Source: Coemansia sp. RSA 487 (lineage: Eukaryota > Kickxellomycota > Kickxellomycetes > Kickxellales > Kickxellaceae). Taken from it: a DNA stretch of 64,000 bases. A program made the position numbers and the translations under genes. The stretch spans positions 62,001 through 126,000 of the forward strand of contig JANBRJ010000023.1 in the NCBI GenBank assembly GCA_027577595.1. Reading direction: 5' to 3'. How positions within the stretch are numbered: position 1 is the first letter of the stretch; each line of letters opens with the position of its first letter. The notes under the pieces are model-generated. The model was not told the DNA's origin, searched no databases, and was given only the letters and a program-made list of their open reading frames with translations. Positions 48,733 to 58,307 of the stretch are shown piece by piece.

Positions 48733-49566
48733 TTACAAGTTGCAATGCACCCTGATCACATCCTCTAGCTCCTCAATGGTCTCGATCATCTCTTGTACTT
48801 GTGCAATACTGTCCTCGGCAACATTCGCATGCGTGTCTGGAACATATGTTCCTTCCATGCGCTCAACTATATAGCCGTGGGTGCTGGTCAGCAGCTTTGT
48901 GACTGCCTGCAGCTCGTTGAACTCGCAAATAACTTCAACACCACTACCTTCAAGCTCCGAAATGTCCTCAGCGCCAGCATCGATAGCATGCTCAAACATT
49001 GTGTCCAGCGAGTGTGACGTGCCTTCTTGAGAAAAGCAGATGCGTCCCTTCTTTTCAAACATGTATCCAACAGGCGCCAAGGCTCCTCCAAAACGGCTAA
49101 GCACATTGCGAAGAGCTTTGACTGTACGATTTTTATTTTCGGTAAGGCACTCGATGATAAGTGCAGTGCCATGTGGCCCTAGTCCCTCGTAAACCACCTG
49201 CTCGGCGCCCGAATACTCTTTGGATGTGGCACGCTTTATAGCACGGTCGATGTTTTCTTTTGGCATATCTGCAAGCCTGGCTTGCTTCAGCGTAGCAGCT
49301 AGGCGTAGGTTTATCTTTATGTCGGAGCCGCCATCTTTCACAGAGGTAATAATGCTTTTGCTGATGGCGGAGAAGAGCTGACCCTTTTTAATATCGGATG
49401 CTCCCTTTGAATGACGGATCTTGGACCAGCGACTGTGGCCGGCATATCTCTTTTGCGACCAGAATTCCGAGGACACGGATGCATAGTGTGGTGCAAAAAA
49501 AGTGCGGGTTGGCAGGCTTCTTGGTGTGTGCAGAAAACATAATCGGCGGATTTCAGGGCGACTCAT
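48733..49566 (-). CDS. TACO1/YebC-family mitochondrial translation activator
   Basis: 277 residues from the ATG at 49566. In animals TACO1 activates COX1 translation; yeast Dpc29 and bacterial YebC act on ribosomes stalled at difficult codons. Seen: an Arg-rich, Ser-rich presequence (MSRPEIRRLCFLHTPRSLPTRT), then the family signature AGHSRWSKIRHSKGASDIKKG (about residues 42-62). ADMPKENIDRAIKRAT, YEGLGPHGTALIIECLTENKNRT and FEKKGRICF follow, spanning all three YebC domains. Upstream in-frame ATGs exist (49617, 49698), but the hydrophobic extension looks like leader. The mitochondrial location is inferred from the presequence. Confidence 0.92.
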   Translation of the reverse strand: MSRPEIRRLCFLHTPRSLPTRTFFAPHYASVSSEFWSQKRYAGHSRWSKIRHSKGASDIKKGQLFSAISKSIITSVKDGGSDIKINLRLAATLKQARLADMPKENIDRAIKRATSKEYSGAEQVVYEGLGPHGTALIIECLTENKNRTVKALRNVLSRFGGALAPVGYMFEKKGRICFSQEGTSHSLDTMFEHAIDAGAEDISELEGSGVEVICEFNELQAVTKLLTSTHGYIVERMEGTYVPDTHANVAEDSIAQVQEMIETIEELEDVIRVHCNL

Positions 49567-50441
49567 TGTTGTTTCCAGGATGATTTTAGCTGCGCCAAAG
49601 TTTGTAGAAGCATGCATACAATATCTATAACAGAATATTATCAGAAATATACAGGGGCTGCGAGCCTTTGCGACCCAATTAGCTAGTAGCTGGAGCATGA
49701 TAGCACACCAGCTTCTTCAAGTGATGTAACTGGCGATAACAATGGGACATGACTATTGGCCGATCTCTCGCTGATAATCTGCGGAAACTAAACATACTGG
49801 AAGGCAATGTGCGCTGCACGCTTTGACCAGGCTGGCAATTTCGCTAACATCTACATGATATACAACTGCACCAAGAAGATGGCCATAGCTGCTTCTGCAC
49901 TCATCTTGAGAAACACCACAGGGCATGCAAAACGGGAGGAACCTTGCTTTGCTTTGAGCTCCCGAACTTTTCCGATATGCCATGAGTCAGTCCACCTTTA
50001 TATTTTGTATTTTGCCTAGCACTGTTGTTGCCTATGCGTATCTGAGGAAATGAAATGTTCCTTACAGAACGTATTTCGCATAAACTCGCAATGCTACTGG
50101 TGTGCCTTTAACTCCTGGATAATTAGAACGCTCTTTACTTCCTTTGTGACGTGCAGTGTTTTGCAAAACTAGCTGCGTTGGATAAGAAGGATTTATACGT
50201 GTCGAATGGTAAAAGGTTTGCGGTGGCAATAATGCATTTTGCGTTCCAAGAAAAGTCGTCTGCGTCAGTCGGCCTTATGTTTGCACTTGGAAGCAAGAGG
50301 CGCAAGCTGAGCTTCGTGGAGAAAGCAGTTCGCTACACGCCTATTGTTTCACACTAAAATGGATTGACTTCTCGGCCTCTGTCTCTGCTTTCAATGTAAT
50401 TAGTTAACATTCATTGAGAAAGTCTCAAGCCGCTTCTGCTG
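49567..50441. other. Intergenic; one small unassigned frame
   Basis: A 76-codon ATG-initiated frame on the minus strand (49983-49753) has a Cys-rich start (FCMPCGVSQDEC) and a continuous frame, but no recognised family. It could be a small gene just upstream of TACO1 or chance. A plus-strand frame at 50151-50357 also resembles nothing. No other feature was seen before the transposase fragment. Confidence 0.3.
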
Positions 50442-50715
50442 CCAAAAAGAGAAGAGCCAATGGCAACAAGATCAGGATTAGTGGGCGTGTTGGCACATGG
50501 ACAGAGCACTTTTCTGGCCTACATCTCAAATGTAATTGATGTACTGGATGCAAAGAACATGAAAGGCCACTATCTTGTGATGGACAATGCTCAAATATAC
50601 ACACCATTATCCATTCAAAACCTAATAGAAAACAGATGATACAAGCGCCTATATCTGCCTCCATACTCACCCTTTCTAAATTCCGTTGAGGAGCTCTGGT
50701 CCAAAGTAAAATGGT
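50442..50715 (+). pseudogene. DDE transposase fragment (IS630/Tc1-mariner superfamily)
   Basis: Only the catalytic-core end of a DDE transposase remains. The frame reads GHYLVMDNAQIYT, with the second acidic residue in MDN at 50583-50585. It continues through a TGA stop (50637-50639) into YKRLYLPPYSPFLNSVEELW, with the third acidic residue in VEELW at 50688-50690. These are the DDE_3-type hallmarks (DN..., LPPYSPxLNxVE). The N-terminal DNA-binding part and terminal inverted repeats are missing. The frame is lost at about 50715, where an LTR-element fossil begins. An inactive relic of a cut-and-paste DNA transposon. Confidence 0.75.
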
Positions 50716-51076
50716 GGTATTTCAGCACAAATCGCTCGTTTCAGATCAAACTGCCTGATAATCGGTGCAGACGACAGCCGTTCCTTGAGCTCACTAAATG
50801 CCGATTCTGCTTCGCCATTCCAAACAAATTCCTTTGTCACCATCAAATTTATCAGTGGCATAGCAATCCGCGAGCAGTCTGACAAAACGACGACAATAAC
50901 CAAGCCGTCCTTTGTGATCACATAATCCAAGAACTCGGCCGAACCCTTGAAAAACTCACATTTCTTTGGCTTCGTATGTAGATTGTTTTCCTGCAAATGC
51001 TGGAACACTGCATCCAAATGTTTCGCGTGTTCTTTAGCATTCCTTGAATAAATCGGAATGTCCTCATCACGAATAC

Positions 51077-51237
51077 TGTTACAACAATATTGAGTTAACA
51101 GAACAAATACAATATTCACCGAGGGGACTGTAGTTCCCCACATTTATTTTCAATAAAATCATGGCCTTTTATAGCCATAAGACCTATCCTAAAACAAAGC
51201 TGATAATTGGGAAATATATAATATGTTCTTGCCAACA
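51077..51237 (-). repeat. Solo LTR nested in the gypsy fossil
   Basis: About 161 bases, starting TGTTGG and ending ...AACA. It carries a GGCTATAAAAGG TATA-like box and a GAAAATAAA polyadenylation-like signal followed by GGGGAACT. It aligns along most of its length with the plus-strand LTR at 53336-53496. Edges are approximate by a few bases, and no perfect target duplication was seen. It lies inside the reverse transcriptase region of the older element. Confidence 0.65.
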
Positions 51238-53161
51238 ATATAATTAACCCATCATGAATCAATTATATTGCAAAGCAGGTTCACAAATCAGGCTTTGCAA
51301 TTCGTGAATTGGATTGTTATCACAAATACACACCTGGTGATATGGCTGAACAAGATCGATCTTCGAAAACATTTGCGCGCCATGTGTCTCATCAAGCAAG
51401 TCATCAGTAAGTGGCATTGGAAACGAATCCTTAATGGTACACTTGTTCAAGCCGCGATAATCAACGCATACGCGCAGTATACCATCCTTCTTGTGCACAA
51501 ACAACACCAGAGTAGCCCAGGGCGATGTAGACGTGAAACTGTAAGCTTTCTTCGGCGATTCACGTATCTGCTTCTCCATCTCGGTTATCTCTGCATGTGA
51601 TAGAAGATATGGCACTCTGGCGACCGGCTCAGACCCCTCTGTCAGATGGATCTCGATTTCAGGACTGCCAGGCGCAAGTTGACTAACTAGCGACTGCTCA
51701 AGTACCTGATTATGCTTTGAGCACAACATAGCCGACTGATCTTCCTGATTTGTCGCCAGTGCCGCAACAGACAATTGAGACTTCAAACCGTCCTCGGGGA
51801 TCTCACGCAAATCCAGCCCATCGGGTCGATATCGTCGTCTGTCACTAGCTTTGTCACTGTATTGACTGTAAGCAGTTTGACCGCGTTCTCTGCAACAGAC
51901 GCAGCCCGAACCACTGTTCCCGAGATTTTCCAACGCTTATCTTTTTCAGTAATAAATACAACGTTCTCCTCGCAACGGATAACACTCTTGTGCTCTTTCA
52001 GCCAGTTGCTACCAAGCAGAATAGTAGTTGTCGCTGGCATCACCAAACAATAAGTATTAATGCGCAAATTGCCACCGAAATAAATAGGCAATCTGCAATA
52101 CTTTGTACAGTCATAACAGTGTGCACCATCTGTCAAAATAGTCGGTATTGACGCACCCAAACCATAAAACTTGATTTTCTACTCCTTACAAAACTCCTTA
52201 TCGGCAATAGCTATCTACGACTCACCATCCACCAAAATGTGAGCCGGAATCTCGTTAGCCATACCGTTAATATACAACTGCTCCACAGGCAAGATTTATG
52301 CAGGCGTCCCATTAAACAGAATCCCTTCGATAAACGCTATACTACGCGGCACAGCCAAGGGCTTGTCAGTCCTCACAACATTCGGCCAGTTGTTCAGGCT
52401 ACAACGAGGCATAGCTATCTTCATTACATCGATTTTGACTGGCTCCCGCTGCATTGACTTTTCGGCTGCAAAGAAGCTTCTAGTCTTTGACACAGCCGCA
52501 TCAAACTTACACACTGTATTAGTCGCTGCTTCAGCAATGAACCAATTACAAGGCTTGATTGGAAGCTTCACAATGGAGATACATGTTGTAAGCCCCTGTC
52601 TGGTATCATATACGCCGTGTTTGCATAGGATTTTATATTCCTCAAGGAAGGTTTCAGATTCGGCCGAATTCGTCAGCGGCTTCATCTGATAAATTCGAAT
52701 ACTAGCGTCCAGCCGATGGATCGAGTCGCAATATAGCGTGACTAGAAACTCTCCCAATGAACTCCACGCCAGAATCTCGTGGTCATTCAAGGCGCACCAA
52801 TACCAATTATCGTGCTCCGATTGCTTACCCATCGGAATTTTCATCAACGCGAACGACACCCATAGATCCTTCCCGACCCCGAACAATTTAAAAACATATT
52901 CAGCGTGTTGCAGCCATGGACCGATCAGAACAATATTCTTGCTTACTCCATCCGGCTGCAACTCTCGCAGAGTTTTCAAAACATGATTGATCTCTGTGGC
53001 TGACAACAAACTTGTAGTTTCAATAGTCGCCATTATCATACATGTGGCGACAAGCAACACAACAGAACAATAACCACTAAACAATCCAACATTAGAGGAA
53101 GCGATTTGAATTAAACTATAATAGTATAAAAGTGGGTGGTACTACCAAGTTTAATAAAGCT

Positions 53162-53328
53162 TGTTAGCATTTTTCAAAACGGAACTAAAACTTATGTTCA
53201 TTTTTATTCCAACAAAAGATTGGCTTTTACAGTCGTCAAAACATTCTGATAATGATAATGACTCGCAAATTGCACGCCTAATCGCTATCATATGAGTCGC
53301 CATCGCAATATGACTGTCTCTTGGAACA
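53162..53328 (-). repeat. 5' LTR of the gypsy fossil
   Basis: About 167 bases on the minus strand, starting TGTTCC and ending CTAACA, followed about 15 bases later by a primer-binding-like TGG sequence. Its central part (TGTAAAAGCC, then GGAATAAAAATGA, then TTTTAGTTCC) is a diverged relative of the two other LTRs. Boundaries are approximate. Confidence 0.55.
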
Positions 53329-53335
53329 ATCATAT

Positions 53336-53496
53336 TGTTGGGAAGCATATATCGTATGCTTCCCGATTATCTAGTTCAATCGTTGTAGTGTTTGCACGGC
53401 TATAAAAGCCAGGCTATCTATGAAAATAAAAACGAGGAACTTTAGCTCCGTCTGCTCTCTTGATATTCTTGTGAAAAGCGATATATCAGTATCACA
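53336..53496 (+). repeat. Solo LTR, head-to-head with the gypsy 5' LTR
   Basis: About 161 bases on the plus strand, starting TGTTGGGAAG and ending ...ATCACA, with GGCTATAAAAGCC (53399-53411) and GAAAATAAAAACG. It is homologous to the nested LTR at 51077-51237. It contains a perfect 10-base inverted repeat, GGGAAGCATA / TATGCTTCCC (53340-53349 and 53355-53364). It begins only 7 bases from the oppositely oriented LTR and ends about 215 bases before the Fanzor start. No internal region is attached. Confidence 0.65.
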
Positions 53497-53711
53497 AGTG
53501 TTCCCAAACAAGCTAAATAACGAAAAGAGCATGTATTGCCTGATTAGGAAAGGCAGCGTGACATTGATGACTCAACGTTGGCCAATACTATGTAACGACC
53601 AAAGGGCGTTTATTTTTCCTTTGACATTTTGTTTCTTCCAGTAGCACCAAATACACTTTTCAACGCATATATTATATTAGTTATATTCTCTTGTTTGCTC
53701 GCCCATCTGCA

Positions 53712-55863
53712 ATGGACAATGAGGATATATTGGACACAGGGACACACGTTATAAAGTGTCCCCTAAAATCTCTGGTGAATGACAGAAACGACATTACCAA
53801 GGTAAACGACTATGTTGTAGTGACCAATACAGCTTCTGCGTACATATATGGGCTAGCTACGCACAAGCAGCTCGATCTCTCTGTGTGCCCGGAAAAGAGG
53901 TTTTTTGGCGAGGTATTCCTGCACCTCACCAAGCGGAAAGTCAGGCCGAATGTCAAGGCTGAAATCCAGGAGTACAGGAGGGTCATACGCAAGCACCTGG
54001 ATGCGTACAAGGAGGCTGCTGGCATCACAGAGTTTGATATAGCCAACCCAAACCAGACAGCACAGTTCGAGGCAGCAAGAATTTACACTGCATACGTGAA
54101 TAATATACAGACCAAGTTTGGTCAGTATCTTCGGCGTGCAGTAAATGTTCTGCTGAAAACTCGGGAGCGCAAGAGGGATCTTGAGGAGGCAATGAAGGGC
54201 AGAACAGCAGATGAGATAAAGGAAGCGTATGAAGACCGAATTTGGAAACCTGGGCTGGAGTTGAAAGAAGCGATAAAACACCGCAACACTGTTCTTCCAA
54301 TTATCACTGTGGGCAACAAGAACATTGGGGACATTCTTGAACCTGTGTTGACAGCATACGACAACGACTACAAGTTTGAGGAGGAAGGTCTTTATTACGA
54401 TATCAAGGCGCATCCAAAAAAAGTACTTCAAAGCATTCTATTTCTTGGCAGTGCTTCTTGAGACGAACGACTGCAGATCTTTCCAGTGTTTCCCATTGCG
54501 GAAGTCGTTTGTGCCAATGCACATCGAAATTGACACCATGGTATTATGTCGAAGCATAATGGGCTGGAGCTATAACGCGAAGTCCCTCATTGAAAGCTAT
54601 TGGTACAGATTTCTCAATGAAAAATCGAGGGTGCTACGGACAAGAAATGGCTTCAGATTCTACGGCACGATACAGACTGACGGCGTGTCTGTGTCAGTGA
54701 TCAAAAAGACTGCAACAGCCAAAGAAAAAAGCAGCTGGAAAGTGAGGAAGAGGGATGCTGAAGCAAATGCTGCCATTGAGACCAGCGGAGTTGGGCTGAC
54801 TGCTCCAGCTGAGAGCATAGCTACTGGCTTACCGCCAGAGGCCCAGCCCAAAAAGCCCAGGAAGCGAAAAAAGCCAGGTGAAAAGAAGCCAGGTGAGTTC
54901 ACATATATCCACGAGCTTTCACCAGAGCAGCTGGCCAGCATGAAAAACCCGATTTTCATGGATCCGGGTCGCCAGGACATTGTCTTTGGCATGACGGAGG
55001 AGAGCACCTCTGAGGAGAAAGCTCTTTTCCGATACACACGGAACCAAAAGGCTAAAGAAACCCGGATAACCCATTATCACAAGCTGAGGGAAAAGGTCAA
55101 GAACGAGCATCCAGACAGCAACGAAATCAAGGCTGCTGAGGTTAGATTGGCTGCTTTTTCGTGCACAGCAGTATTGCCAGATAAATATGAGCAATATGTC
55201 AGGACGCGTGCTGCCGTTTGGCCAGTGCTGAGTAAATTCTACACGAACACCATGACCACCAGCAAGAATCGGAACAGCCCTCAGCCGATTCATCGCAAGC
55301 TTCGGCAATCGGCCCACATCAAGCAGCAACAAGCCGATGCGCGGCTAGCAAAGAGGGTTCGGGTGACATGCGACGATGAAAAACCCACTGTGATCTTAGG
55401 CAACTGGAGTGCGCCAATGGCTCGCTACCATGAGCCTATACGGGGGGTTGGGTTTCGGCGAATGCTGAGGAAAAAAGGGTGCCGAGTCTATCTTATTGAC
55501 GAATTCAGAACGTCAAAGATTTGCCCAAACTGCCTCATCGGCACTCTCAAGACGTTCCTGAAAGTGCCCAACCCCCGCCCCTACCAACGAAAGAAGATGA
55601 AAGAAGTCCTCTGCCACGGTCTCCTTAAGTGCACCAACGAACTATGTATGGGTCCCGTGGAAGTGGATGGTGTTTTGACTCCTCGTTCGCGCATGTACAA
55701 CCGAGATCTCGCAGCCGTTCTCAACTTCAGGCACATTTTCCATGACCTTCGCGACCACGGTAAGGCTCCAGAGCGCTTCTGTCGCAGTCAGCCTGCAGCC
55801 ATTGCTACCGCCGATGAACAGCAGCCCAAGAAGAAAAGGAAGACGGCGAGGAAAAACAAATAA
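53712..55863 (+). CDS. Fanzor: eukaryotic TnpB-like, RNA-guided nuclease family (one frameshift)
   Basis: Fanzors are eukaryotic relatives of TnpB that use a guide RNA to cut DNA. The ATG at 53712 (MDNEDILDTG) opens the first frame, which has HVIKCPLKSLV and then helical sequence. The match passes to the +1 frame at an A7 run (54416-54422): HPKK in one frame meets YFKAFYFLAVLLE in the other, then CFPLRKSFVPMHIEIDT. With six A's the product would be 716 residues. RuvC-like residues are all present: Asp in FMDPGRQD (about 417), Glu in LIDEFRTSK (about 597) and Asp in YNRDLAAVLNF (about 665). Zinc-finger cysteines are CPNC and CTNELC. Basic nuclear-signal-like runs (PRKRKK, PKKKRK) are present. 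The indel may be a real mutation or an assembly error. Host or phage TnpB is unlikely given the eukaryotic motif layout. Confidence 0.85.
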
Positions 55864-55960
55864 CAACCACCACGAAATTCAGCCAAGGTTATAGCCGCGG
55901 CAAATCCTAGTTCTAGGATAGGATGCTGTCCCTTTTGCAGGTAAGTGCTCAAATGAGAGC
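55864..55960 (+). ncRNA. Candidate Fanzor guide-RNA (fRNA) region
   Basis: Fanzor and TnpB guide RNAs usually overlap or follow the 3' end of the nuclease ORF. Just after the stop there is a perfect 6-7 bp inverted repeat, ATCCTAG/CTAGGAT (55904-55910 and 55913-55919), best read as a 6 bp stem with a GTTC loop. It is followed by a GC-containing stretch. No element end was defined, so the scaffold/guide boundary cannot be placed. This is inference from position plus one hairpin. Confidence 0.25.
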
Positions 55961-56828
55961 CGATGAGATAAACATCTGCGACTGCTTTTGACGATGGTAC
56001 TAATCATTTGTATTTTCTCTTGCGTGTTTTCCTGTTTTGCACTGACGCATATGCCATGCCAATTGACACAAACGGTTTTTCTTGGAACGCAAGATGCATT
56101 ATTGCCACCGCAAACCTTTCACCATTCGGCGCGTATACATCCCTTCTTATTCGATATCATTAGAAGCATAAACAGGCAACGATCGGCTGGGCTGTGCACA
56201 GGAAGCCGTTTCTTCCCGCAGCTGATTCAGCGTCAGCTTTTGATGACTGAAAATGAGGTTTGCATTGGAGAGATTTAAGCCAATGTGCTGCCGTTCAGAT
56301 GCGTCTGCGATAAGATCAGCAATAGTTTTTGTTCCTATCAGAAGCAATCGTAGCACCCTGGCCTATCTTTTTTGATCTCATTCACATACTCTCTACTTGT
56401 GCTTGTGCACAGAGCCACCCAGTTTTCTCAGCCGCGTCCGGATGCGATCGGTTGTGATAGGAGCAGAGGGAGAGGGGATATCTCCACTGACTCCTTTTTT
56501 TGTAACCCCTCTAACGCAAAAAAAGTCACAGTCCATTTTGGATGCTATATAAACGGCATACTCCTTCGCTTCTAGTATGTGCAGGCTGTATTCCTTATCG
56601 TTTACGCTTATATTGTTTTATTTAGACCACCTTATATATTTTGAGCTTTGTGGCCAGACGTATTTAATATATAAGCTTTATAGAGATTGTGCAACATCTG
56701 GAGCACATTTTATTTCAGCTCTTTAGCAAGTGCATCACTATACATTTGTACACTTTATCTAGCCTGCACAGCTTTTTTTTGTACACACGCATCTTGACGC
56801 TGGATCGCTCTGATTGTCTGGATAAGCA
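55961..56828. other. Region between Fanzor and the ammonium transporter
   Basis: No gene was recognised. Near its left edge a juxtaposed acceptor-donor string TTTTGCAGGTAAGT (55934-55947) is notable. The last 250 bases before the transporter are AT-rich with several TATATA-like stretches (about 56625-56680) and a T-rich leader, suitable for a promoter. The right end of the Fanzor element is not visible. Confidence 0.4.
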
Positions 56829-58307
56829 ATGGCGCCAGCAGCGACTAGCATCGATGATATCGACATGGGCACAACGGTGTGGATGATTGCATCCACAGCG
56901 TTTGTGTTTCTCATGATCCCGGGGCTCGGGTATTTTTACAGCGGCATGGTGCGCAGCAAGAACGCGCTCTCGCTCGTCTTTCTCTGCATGATGGCTCTTG
57001 CAGTGGTTACGGTTCAATGGGTCCTATGGGGGTACTCGCTGGCCTTCTCCGAAACTGCAACAAACCCGTTTATCGGCAACCTGAAGCACTGGTTGTTCCT
57101 CGATGTCAGCATGAAACCGCACCCGAATTCCCCTACAGTCCCTGGCGTCGTTTTCGCAACCTACCAGTGCATGTTTGCCGCCCTAACGCCCGGGCTGGCG
57201 ATCGGCGGCGCTGCCGAGCGCATCCGGGTCTTTCCGACGATCATCTATGTGTTTGTCTGGTCAACTCTGGTCTACGACCCAATTGCGTACTGGGTGTGGG
57301 CACCAAACGGCTGGTTGGCCAAGCTGGGCGTCCTTGACTTTGCCGGCGGGTGTGCCGTTGAAACGGCCTCTGGGTTTGCGGCGCTGGCATTCTACTTTGT
57401 GCTTGGCAAGCGCAAAGGCTTTGGCGAAGAAAAGTGGCAACCGCACAACTACCTAAACATCATCCTTGGATGCTCCCTGCTGTATTTCGGCTGGTTCGGC
57501 TTTAACGCCGGCGCTGCATCGCTGACATCGGGCCGCGCAGGCATTGCTTTCCTGACAACCAGCTTAGCCGGCGCCACTGCTGGCCTCACCTGGGTTGCGC
57601 TAGCATTCCGCATCGAGCACAAGTACTCCAGCTTCCACTACTGCTCAGGCGCAGTTGCTGGGATGGTGTGCGTGACGCCAGCATCAAGCTATGTGAGTGT
57701 CTGGGCTGCTGTGCCGATGGGTGTGATCTCTGGCGTGTGCTGCTACTATGCAATCGAGGCAAACCTCCGCATAGGCATCGACGACTGCATCGACGTCTTT
57801 GCAGTACACGGAATCGGCGGCATTCTTGGAGTCTTTCTGACAGGCGTTTTTGCAAACAAAAGTGTTATCGGCCTCGATGGCACAAAGTCAGATGGCGGTC
57901 TTATCAACGGCAACGCCAAACAGCTCTACATCCAGCTTGCAGCCCTGGCAGTCAGCGCCGCTTGGTCGTTCACAATCTCATTCATCGTCCTCACGATCAT
58001 GAATTACTTCCCGCTACTCCGCCTTCGCGTCGACCCTGATGCCGAGGAGCATGGCCTGGACTTTACTGAGCTTGGCGAGGCTGGCTACAGCTTTATGCAC
58101 GATGTCGCCAACATCAACAACAAACCCGACGCTATAACAGCGTCGCCCAGCTTCCACGAAGAATCGCTGCTTGAGCATCCGCACAAACACAAGCCGGTGT
58201 TTAAAGAGTCCACACCCGAAACCAACACCGCTGCTACCACCACTGCAGACTCCAGTTCGCCACCGAGCATAAACATGGATGTCAAATCCAACTTATCTCC
58301 TGTATAA
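56829..58307 (+). CDS. Ammonium transporter, Mep1/Mep3 type (AMT family)
   Basis: 492 residues, intronless. Plasma-membrane AMT/Mep proteins take up ammonium. Seen: eleven hydrophobic segments from about residue 17 to 395, the N-terminal block MIPGLGYFYSGMVRSKNALS, and FATYQCMFAALTPGLAIGGAAERI. The pore block is LDFAGGCAVETASGFAALAF, where the first twin-His position is Glu, as in yeast Mep1 and Mep3. The second His is kept in FAVHGIGGILGVFLTG. The cytosolic tail carries the conserved GEAGYSF region followed by Ser/Thr-rich sequence, a likely target of nitrogen-dependent kinases. The start ATG is the first in the frame. Confidence 0.95.
   Translation: MAPAATSIDDIDMGTTVWMIASTAFVFLMIPGLGYFYSGMVRSKNALSLVFLCMMALAVVTVQWVLWGYSLAFSETATNPFIGNLKHWLFLDVSMKPHPNSPTVPGVVFATYQCMFAALTPGLAIGGAAERIRVFPTIIYVFVWSTLVYDPIAYWVWAPNGWLAKLGVLDFAGGCAVETASGFAALAFYFVLGKRKGFGEEKWQPHNYLNIILGCSLLYFGWFGFNAGAASLTSGRAGIAFLTTSLAGATAGLTWVALAFRIEHKYSSFHYCSGAVAGMVCVTPASSYVSVWAAVPMGVISGVCCYYAIEANLRIGIDDCIDVFAVHGIGGILGVFLTGVFANKSVIGLDGTKSDGGLINGNAKQLYIQLAALAVSAAWSFTISFIVLTIMNYFPLLRLRVDPDAEEHGLDFTELGEAGYSFMHDVANINNKPDAITASPSFHEESLLEHPHKHKPVFKESTPETNTAATTTADSSSPPSINMDVKSNLSPV

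Follow-up and report, generated by a model that had tools for sequence, protein, structure and literature searches.

Fanzor1 genes in Tc1/mariner transposons, ghost copies of such elements, Ty3 insertions within them and a shifted catalytic glutamate are all already in print (PMC3627910, PMC10432273, PMC10711439). The signature given for Fanzor1 is an aspartate followed, after 125 to 275 residues, by [TS][TS]XX, a C4 zinc finger, a further 5 to 50 residues and RD (PMC3627910); some of the Tc1/mariner Fanzor1 members in that source carry the Fanzor only. For the Spizellomyces punctatus nuclease SpuFz1, the experimentally defined catalytic triad is D383/E541/D606 (PMC11423790, PMC10432273). The high identity among the S. 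punctatus copies has been ascribed to either recent duplication or strong selection (Saito et al., PMC10432273).

We analysed a 64-kb stretch of DNA, here called the window, from Coemansia, a fungus placed in the Kickxellomycota. By its sequence, the gene at 53712-55863 encodes a Fanzor1. An earlier note on this DNA had placed the gene in a mobile-DNA island; the setting is better described as one terminal-inverted-repeat element of about 6 kb between two ordinary genes, TACO1/YebC (48733-49716) and an ammonium transporter (56826-58307). The features of the element are as follows.

50154-56177 (right boundary approximate), plus strand: whole terminal-inverted-repeat element, from the limits of shared similarity; left end CAGTGTTTTGCAAAACTA
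50154-50273, plus strand: left terminal inverted repeat (93 bp at 87% identity to the right repeat inverted)
50418-50745, plus strand: remnant of a Tc1/mariner-type DDE_3 transposase (C-terminal part, in two frames; PF13358)
50733-53141, minus strand: antisense Ty3/gypsy relic with protease-like, reverse transcriptase and RNase H pieces (Ty3 matches)
52296-53141, minus strand: unnamed frame upstream of the Ty3 pieces, within the relic
53712-54461, plus strand: Fanzor1 N-terminal part from its ATG, first frame (open 53625-54461)
54352-55863, plus strand: Fanzor1 C-terminal part (end of WED, RuvC, zinc finger), second frame
54844-54888, plus strand: upstream basic run, located in the letters
54955-54978, plus strand: FMDPGRQD, located in the letters
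54961-54963, plus strand: first catalytic Asp, of DPG (SpuFz1 D383 by alignment)
55390-55416, plus strand: VILGNWSAP, which lacks a Glu
55492-55518, plus strand: LIDEFRTSK, which carries the Glu
55501-55503, plus strand: shifted catalytic Glu (SpuFz1 E541 by alignment)
55522-55533, plus strand: CPNC, zinc finger
55630-55647, plus strand: CTNELC, zinc finger
55696-55728, plus strand: YNRDLAAVLNF, final Asp motif
55705-55707, plus strand: last catalytic Asp (SpuFz1 D606 by alignment)
55822-55860, plus strand: C-terminal basic run QPKKKRKTARKNK, a putative nuclear signal, located in the letters
55864-56154, plus strand: 3' non-coding right end of 291 bp, kept in ghosts, with a predicted omega-RNA in its last part
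56058-56150, minus strand: right terminal inverted repeat, inner part (inverse match to the left repeat)

The Fanzor1 assignment draws on matches to two solved structures. Searched alone against the PDB set with phmmer, the downstream frame matched the Fanzor1 of Parasitella parasitica (E 2.5e-65) and that of Spizellomyces punctatus (E 7.8e-39). An open paralogue from the same genome (P0001, locus L009) gave E 2e-99 against 9cf0 and 1.7e-42 against 8gkh, aligning to both in several blocks that cover most of its length, and its N-terminal part, homologous to the first frame of the window gene, also aligns to the Parasitella protein. Pfam and NCBIfam profiles gave no name for the protein above their cut-offs. 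The published signature is present in the downstream frame as D204, TSKICPNC at residues 387-394, CTNELC at 427-432 and RD at 451-452, and the gene has both the DPG and a shifted RuvC-II Glu near the first CxxC. Counting along the alignment rows places D429, E609 and D677 of the paralogue at 777, 935 and 1000 in the 8gkh chain, where they align with D383, E541 and D606; the spacings of 158 and 223 in 8gkh positions equal those of the published triad. Across the copy alignment, the first Asp is kept in 19 of 19 copies, the Glu in 16 of the 17 that reach its position and the last Asp in 17 of 17, with gapped positions or those beyond a contig end (2 of 19 for the Glu and last Asp) excluded.

The reading of the locus as a fungal Fanzor with the TnpB/Fanzor layout, made in the earlier note from the letters, is thus borne out, with every motif that it named lying where it had been placed. 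It was also right that VILGNWSAP lacks a Glu and that the Glu sits later, beside the zinc finger. Because this shift is the 'Ealt' arrangement described as common to Fanzors (PMC10711439), it is no peculiarity of the window gene, and we set it aside as a novelty. The description of the gene as nearly intact is fair, but the coding sequence is split over two overlapping open reading frames (53625-54461 and 54352-55863), which rules out an intact gene in one frame and means that the gene as assembled cannot yield a whole protein; the right repeat, too, has decayed in its outer part. The window copy is probably inactive.

The carrier of the gene is a eukaryotic transposon with inverted repeats. 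DNA similarity to other copies runs from 50154 to about 56154, and each end carries an inverted repeat; the copies share these termini while their outer flanks differ. The transposase is decayed in the window copy and in most copies read: profile search gave PF13358 54 bits at C23:112508-112741 (window 50508-50741) with one stop, and DDE_3 matched 50640-50882 at 29.0 bits against a cut-off of 28.6. The remnant corresponds to codons 137-235 of the transposase on contig C19, which, with a copy on C81, has an open frame (298 aa at L102 and 317 aa at L103, respectively). On the opposite strand, the reverse-transcriptase piece at 51262-51936 finds its best matches in Ty3 (4ol8, E 6.9e-18; 7q5b, Ty3 Gag-Pol, 3.4e-17); Pfam matches of the relic were all below cut-offs. 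This piece reads through as a single frame of 225 aa, unlike many copies of the relic elsewhere, whose matches are split between two frames (about residues 1-68 in one and 45-207 in the other). The Ty3 block occurs together with Fanzor sequence in 11 of 40 loci (L009-L048). Of 64 genomic Ty3 matches, at least 57 have a transposase match no more than 4 kb away or a Fanzor match no more than 4.5 kb away, counting as possible neighbours 40 of the 111 transposase matches and 14 of the 93 Fanzor matches; the relic thus travels chiefly with this element.

A tblastn search of the genome with the downstream frame gave at least 93 Fanzor matches (85 of 241 candidates scored), which rules out a single-copy host gene. 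The element ends are likewise repeated, with at least 43 genomic matches to the left end (40 of 224 candidates scored) and at least 40 to the right (40 of 225). The gene had been called the only one of its kind; that stands for the window as far as tested, since no tblastn match besides its own falls there and, when the element was compared with the window at the nucleotide level, only itself and its two repeats came up, but it fails for the genome, in which the search that the earlier note had proposed shows that the Fanzor is not unique. Members of the close group are mostly 70-92% identical (84-88% for full-length ones). A second set, 35-49% identical to the window frame, has open frames of 750-816 aa with no stop in the match at seven places. 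One copy of this second subfamily, which is ~45% identical, lies on the window's own contig, about 6 kb to its left (C23:54765-56102). Around the one member locus that was read (L106, with a frame of 781 aa), we did not find a clear long inverted repeat. The end of a contig cuts off many partial Fanzor matches, which probably reflect breaks in the assembly. Contigs such as C54, C81, C41 and C151 begin or end inside a Fanzor element, and the true copy number is therefore probably above our count.

Short ghosts make up 13 of the 40 loci read (L029, L031, L032, L034-L040 and L044-L046). Between the left end and the right end, these retain the final ~95 to 113 codons of the Fanzor and, in 10 cases, also a fragment from the 5' part of the transposase gene. 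Differences among the 13 by codon position (0.144/0.128/0.182) carry a weak codon signal and several have lost zinc-finger residues, for which reasons we read them as derivatives and rejected a coding role for the remnants. Retention of the right end is what would be expected if it held an omega-RNA, but the ghosts keep the adjoining coding sequence too, so retention alone proves little. An Rfam search of the window gave no match of any kind. The alignment fold of 30 right ends, from which seven more without a recognisable terminus had been excluded, produced only a 4-bp hairpin, which lies inside the inverted repeat; the PpFz1 RNA is described with a second stem of four pairs (PMC11423790). 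By analogy with known Fanzors, we infer a candidate omega-RNA at the right end.

The sequences flanking the repeats were compared after removing duplicates by flank and sites with less than 20 bases of flank; also excluded were 38 repeat-like sites whose side could not be decided, among which a few (L021, L026, L029, L047) are real ends. Read inward, position -1 is A in 29 and G in 15 of 45 left ends, and A in 21 and G in 27 of 52 right ends, with T at -2 in 40 of 45 and 45 of 52, respectively. The dinucleotide outside the repeats is thus TA or TG rather than plain TA, as at 50152-50153 in the window. Among 15 copies with two ends, six have TA on both sides, and in most of the rest at least one repeat is bordered by TG, read inward. 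Two further positions distinguish the sides: A at -3 in 33 of 45 left flanks versus 17 of 52 right flanks (Fisher 9e-5), and C at -4 in 20 of 45 versus 6 of 52 (Fisher 4e-4). Since both occur mainly on the left, the left flank approximates 5'-(C/A)AT(A/G), a pattern not matched by the right flanks or, in the window copy, by the left flank CGTG. For SpuFz1 the published motif is CATA, and for PpFz1 it is ATN (PMC11423790); the order of CATA and TTAA in one sentence of that source would swap SpuFz1 and GtFz1, while its later text gives TTAA to GtFz1. In S. punctatus elements, CA precedes the left repeat (PMC10432273). From the flank letters we infer that (C/A)AT(A/G) is a target-adjacent motif; it could also be an asymmetric preference of the transposase.

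Two loci, L044 (contig C103) and L063 (C40), share 90% identity over the 29 bp of left flank that abut the inverted repeat, and with up to three mismatches this pattern occurs at only these two places in the genome. The shared flank was either carried along with the element or reflects insertion of both copies into like sequence. Insertion targeted to tRNA genes was considered and dropped, no tRNA having been found there. Among the loci compared, we saw no empty sites inside other repeats.

Selection was compared between the parts of the element, using copies that cover at least half of a region and are not spread too widely and taking as the ratio the third-position difference over the mean of the first two. 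Pairwise differences by codon position were 0.071/0.069/0.139 for the Fanzor (19 copies; median dN/dS 0.28), 0.166/0.154/0.145 for the Ty3 reverse-transcriptase piece (9 copies) and 0.117/0.120/0.129 for the upstream Ty3 frame (10 copies). In the eight copies with both genes, the ratio was 2.01 for the Fanzor (95% bootstrap 1.74-2.30) and 1.12 for the transposase (0.87-1.47), intervals that do not overlap, though pairs of copies lack independence and it was codons, rather than copies, that the bootstrap resampled. Fanzor ratios were 2.03 (1.75-2.36) versus 0.91 (0.75-1.11) for the Ty3 piece in the nine copies with the reverse-transcriptase piece, and 2.04 (1.77-2.33) versus 1.09 (0.88-1.34) for the Ty3 frame in the nine with the upstream frame. 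Our counting method assigns the dead Ty3 pieces dN/dS of 0.69 (reverse transcriptase) and 0.53 (upstream frame) instead of 1, and therefore only the contrast is to be trusted. The Fanzor is under purifying selection in matched copies, while the transposase and the Ty3 relic look near neutral; among the parts compared, this shows clear selection for function only on the Fanzor. The matched control within copies favours selection over recent duplication for the nuclease.

Such a contrast might be an artefact if the short transposase stretch, which in most pairs spans about 97 codons, had been truncated in a common ancestor and so sampled one branch only. Seven of the 11 transposase sequences do share almost the same internal starting point. 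With ratios of 1.26 in the four longer copies and 1.33 in the two open ones, weak constraint on the transposase is possible, and its dN/dS (0.55) is below that of the Ty3 reverse transcriptase and about equal to that of the upstream Ty3 frame. We nonetheless think an artefact unlikely, given the separate bootstrap intervals, the Ty3 pieces of the same copies that also lie near 1, and the five copies sharing the deletion of the transposase start, in which dN/dS is still 0.28 for the Fanzor against 0.59 for the transposase remnant. If selection keeps the nuclease and not the transposase, then cutting by the Fanzor (homing or retention) may be the main selfish function of the element, with transposase borrowed in trans, since branches that have lost a transposase of their own still spread and their Fanzor is still constrained; we offer this as a tentative reading, somewhat short of even odds. 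The same constraint on the Fanzor, next to unclear constraint on the transposase of the same copies, would also be seen if the protein had a role of its own and were kept for a host or regulatory job, such as restraining transposition, instead of for homing or retention. Domesticated genes usually occur in one or few copies at a fixed site, and here there are dozens, in unrelated sites, with transposon ends and many of them broken, which makes a host role very unlikely.

The explanation that we consider well supported, and on balance quite probable, is that a high-copy Tc1/mariner-type element of this fungus carries a Fanzor1 that would act through an RNA from the right end. By analogy with described Fanzors, the protein would bind RNA read from the right end of intact elements or ghosts, the last ~15 nt of which would be flanking host DNA serving as the guide; it would recognise a (C/A)AT(A/G)-like motif plus the guide sequence in an unoccupied site and cut there, and repair would copy the element in or retain it. 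Rare open copies would supply the transposase in trans. The explanation is backed by the Fanzor1 homology, the triad, the copies and their shared termini, the left-flank motif, the DDE_3 domain and the selection on the Fanzor; counted against it are the undetected omega-RNA, the few TA pairs and the misfit of the window flank CGTG. As for the window copy itself, its frame break could be an error of sequencing or assembly in an active copy, and the frame change does lie near a homopolymer run, in the overlap at 54352-54461, with no stop in the aligned Fanzor frame and the triad intact. Such an error seems improbable to us in a copy whose outer right repeat is degraded and whose transposase is truncated and has a stop, the more so as many sister copies are interrupted too.

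In the papers searched, we found none that links Fanzors with Coemansia or with names in Kickxell-, and a search for Fanzor, purifying selection and transposon returned one paper, which concerns PGBD5. We found no comparison of nuclease, transposase and Ty3 within copies in a literature search outside which most subscription papers lay. Comparing the nuclease with the transposase and a dead Ty3 within the same copies separates recent duplication from strong selection, and the contrast may help to say what Fanzors are for. A compact genome of 17.8 Mb with dozens of copies, right-end ghosts lacking the nuclease and sequenced sister strains make this fungus a natural test of the Fanzor role.

Among solved Fanzors, the best relative is PpFz1 of Parasitella parasitica (PDB 9cf0-9cf3; PMC11423790), in which the order of RuvC and zinc finger is alike and whose target-adjacent motif, given there as 5'-ATN, fits the Coemansia left flank. 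The Coemansia paralogue lacks an insertion of about 100 residues in the RuvC domain of PpFz1 (alignment blocks end at chain position 988 and resume at 1096), which we take to be the cyclophilin-binding FRI domain. SPu-1 of S. punctatus (8gkh; PMC10432273, PMC3627910) resembles the Coemansia element in its many full and broken copies (42 loci), in its 134 ghost loci without the gene (PMC10432273), in a conserved CA before the left repeat, with putative TA duplications at SPu-1 (PMC10432273) and TA on both sides of six of 15 two-ended copies here, and in having Ty3 inside some copies and about 82% identity between copies (PMC10432273, PMC3627910). It differs in that the account of SPu-1 in PMC10432273 reports no transposase inside the repeats, whereas the Coemansia element has a DDE_3 transposase, and in that the Coemansia ghosts, unlike those described for SPu-1, keep at least the last ~95 Fanzor codons and, in 10 of 13, a transposase piece. 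Also close are PGv-1, PUl-1 and PUl-4 (PMC3627910), which likewise hold a mariner-like transposase and a Fanzor1 within inverted repeats but come from other hosts, Coemansia being absent from the fungi in Table 1 of that source. Set against these systems, what is new here is the host and an element family of a known Fanzor1 kind, together with the contrast in selection between its nuclease and the other parts.
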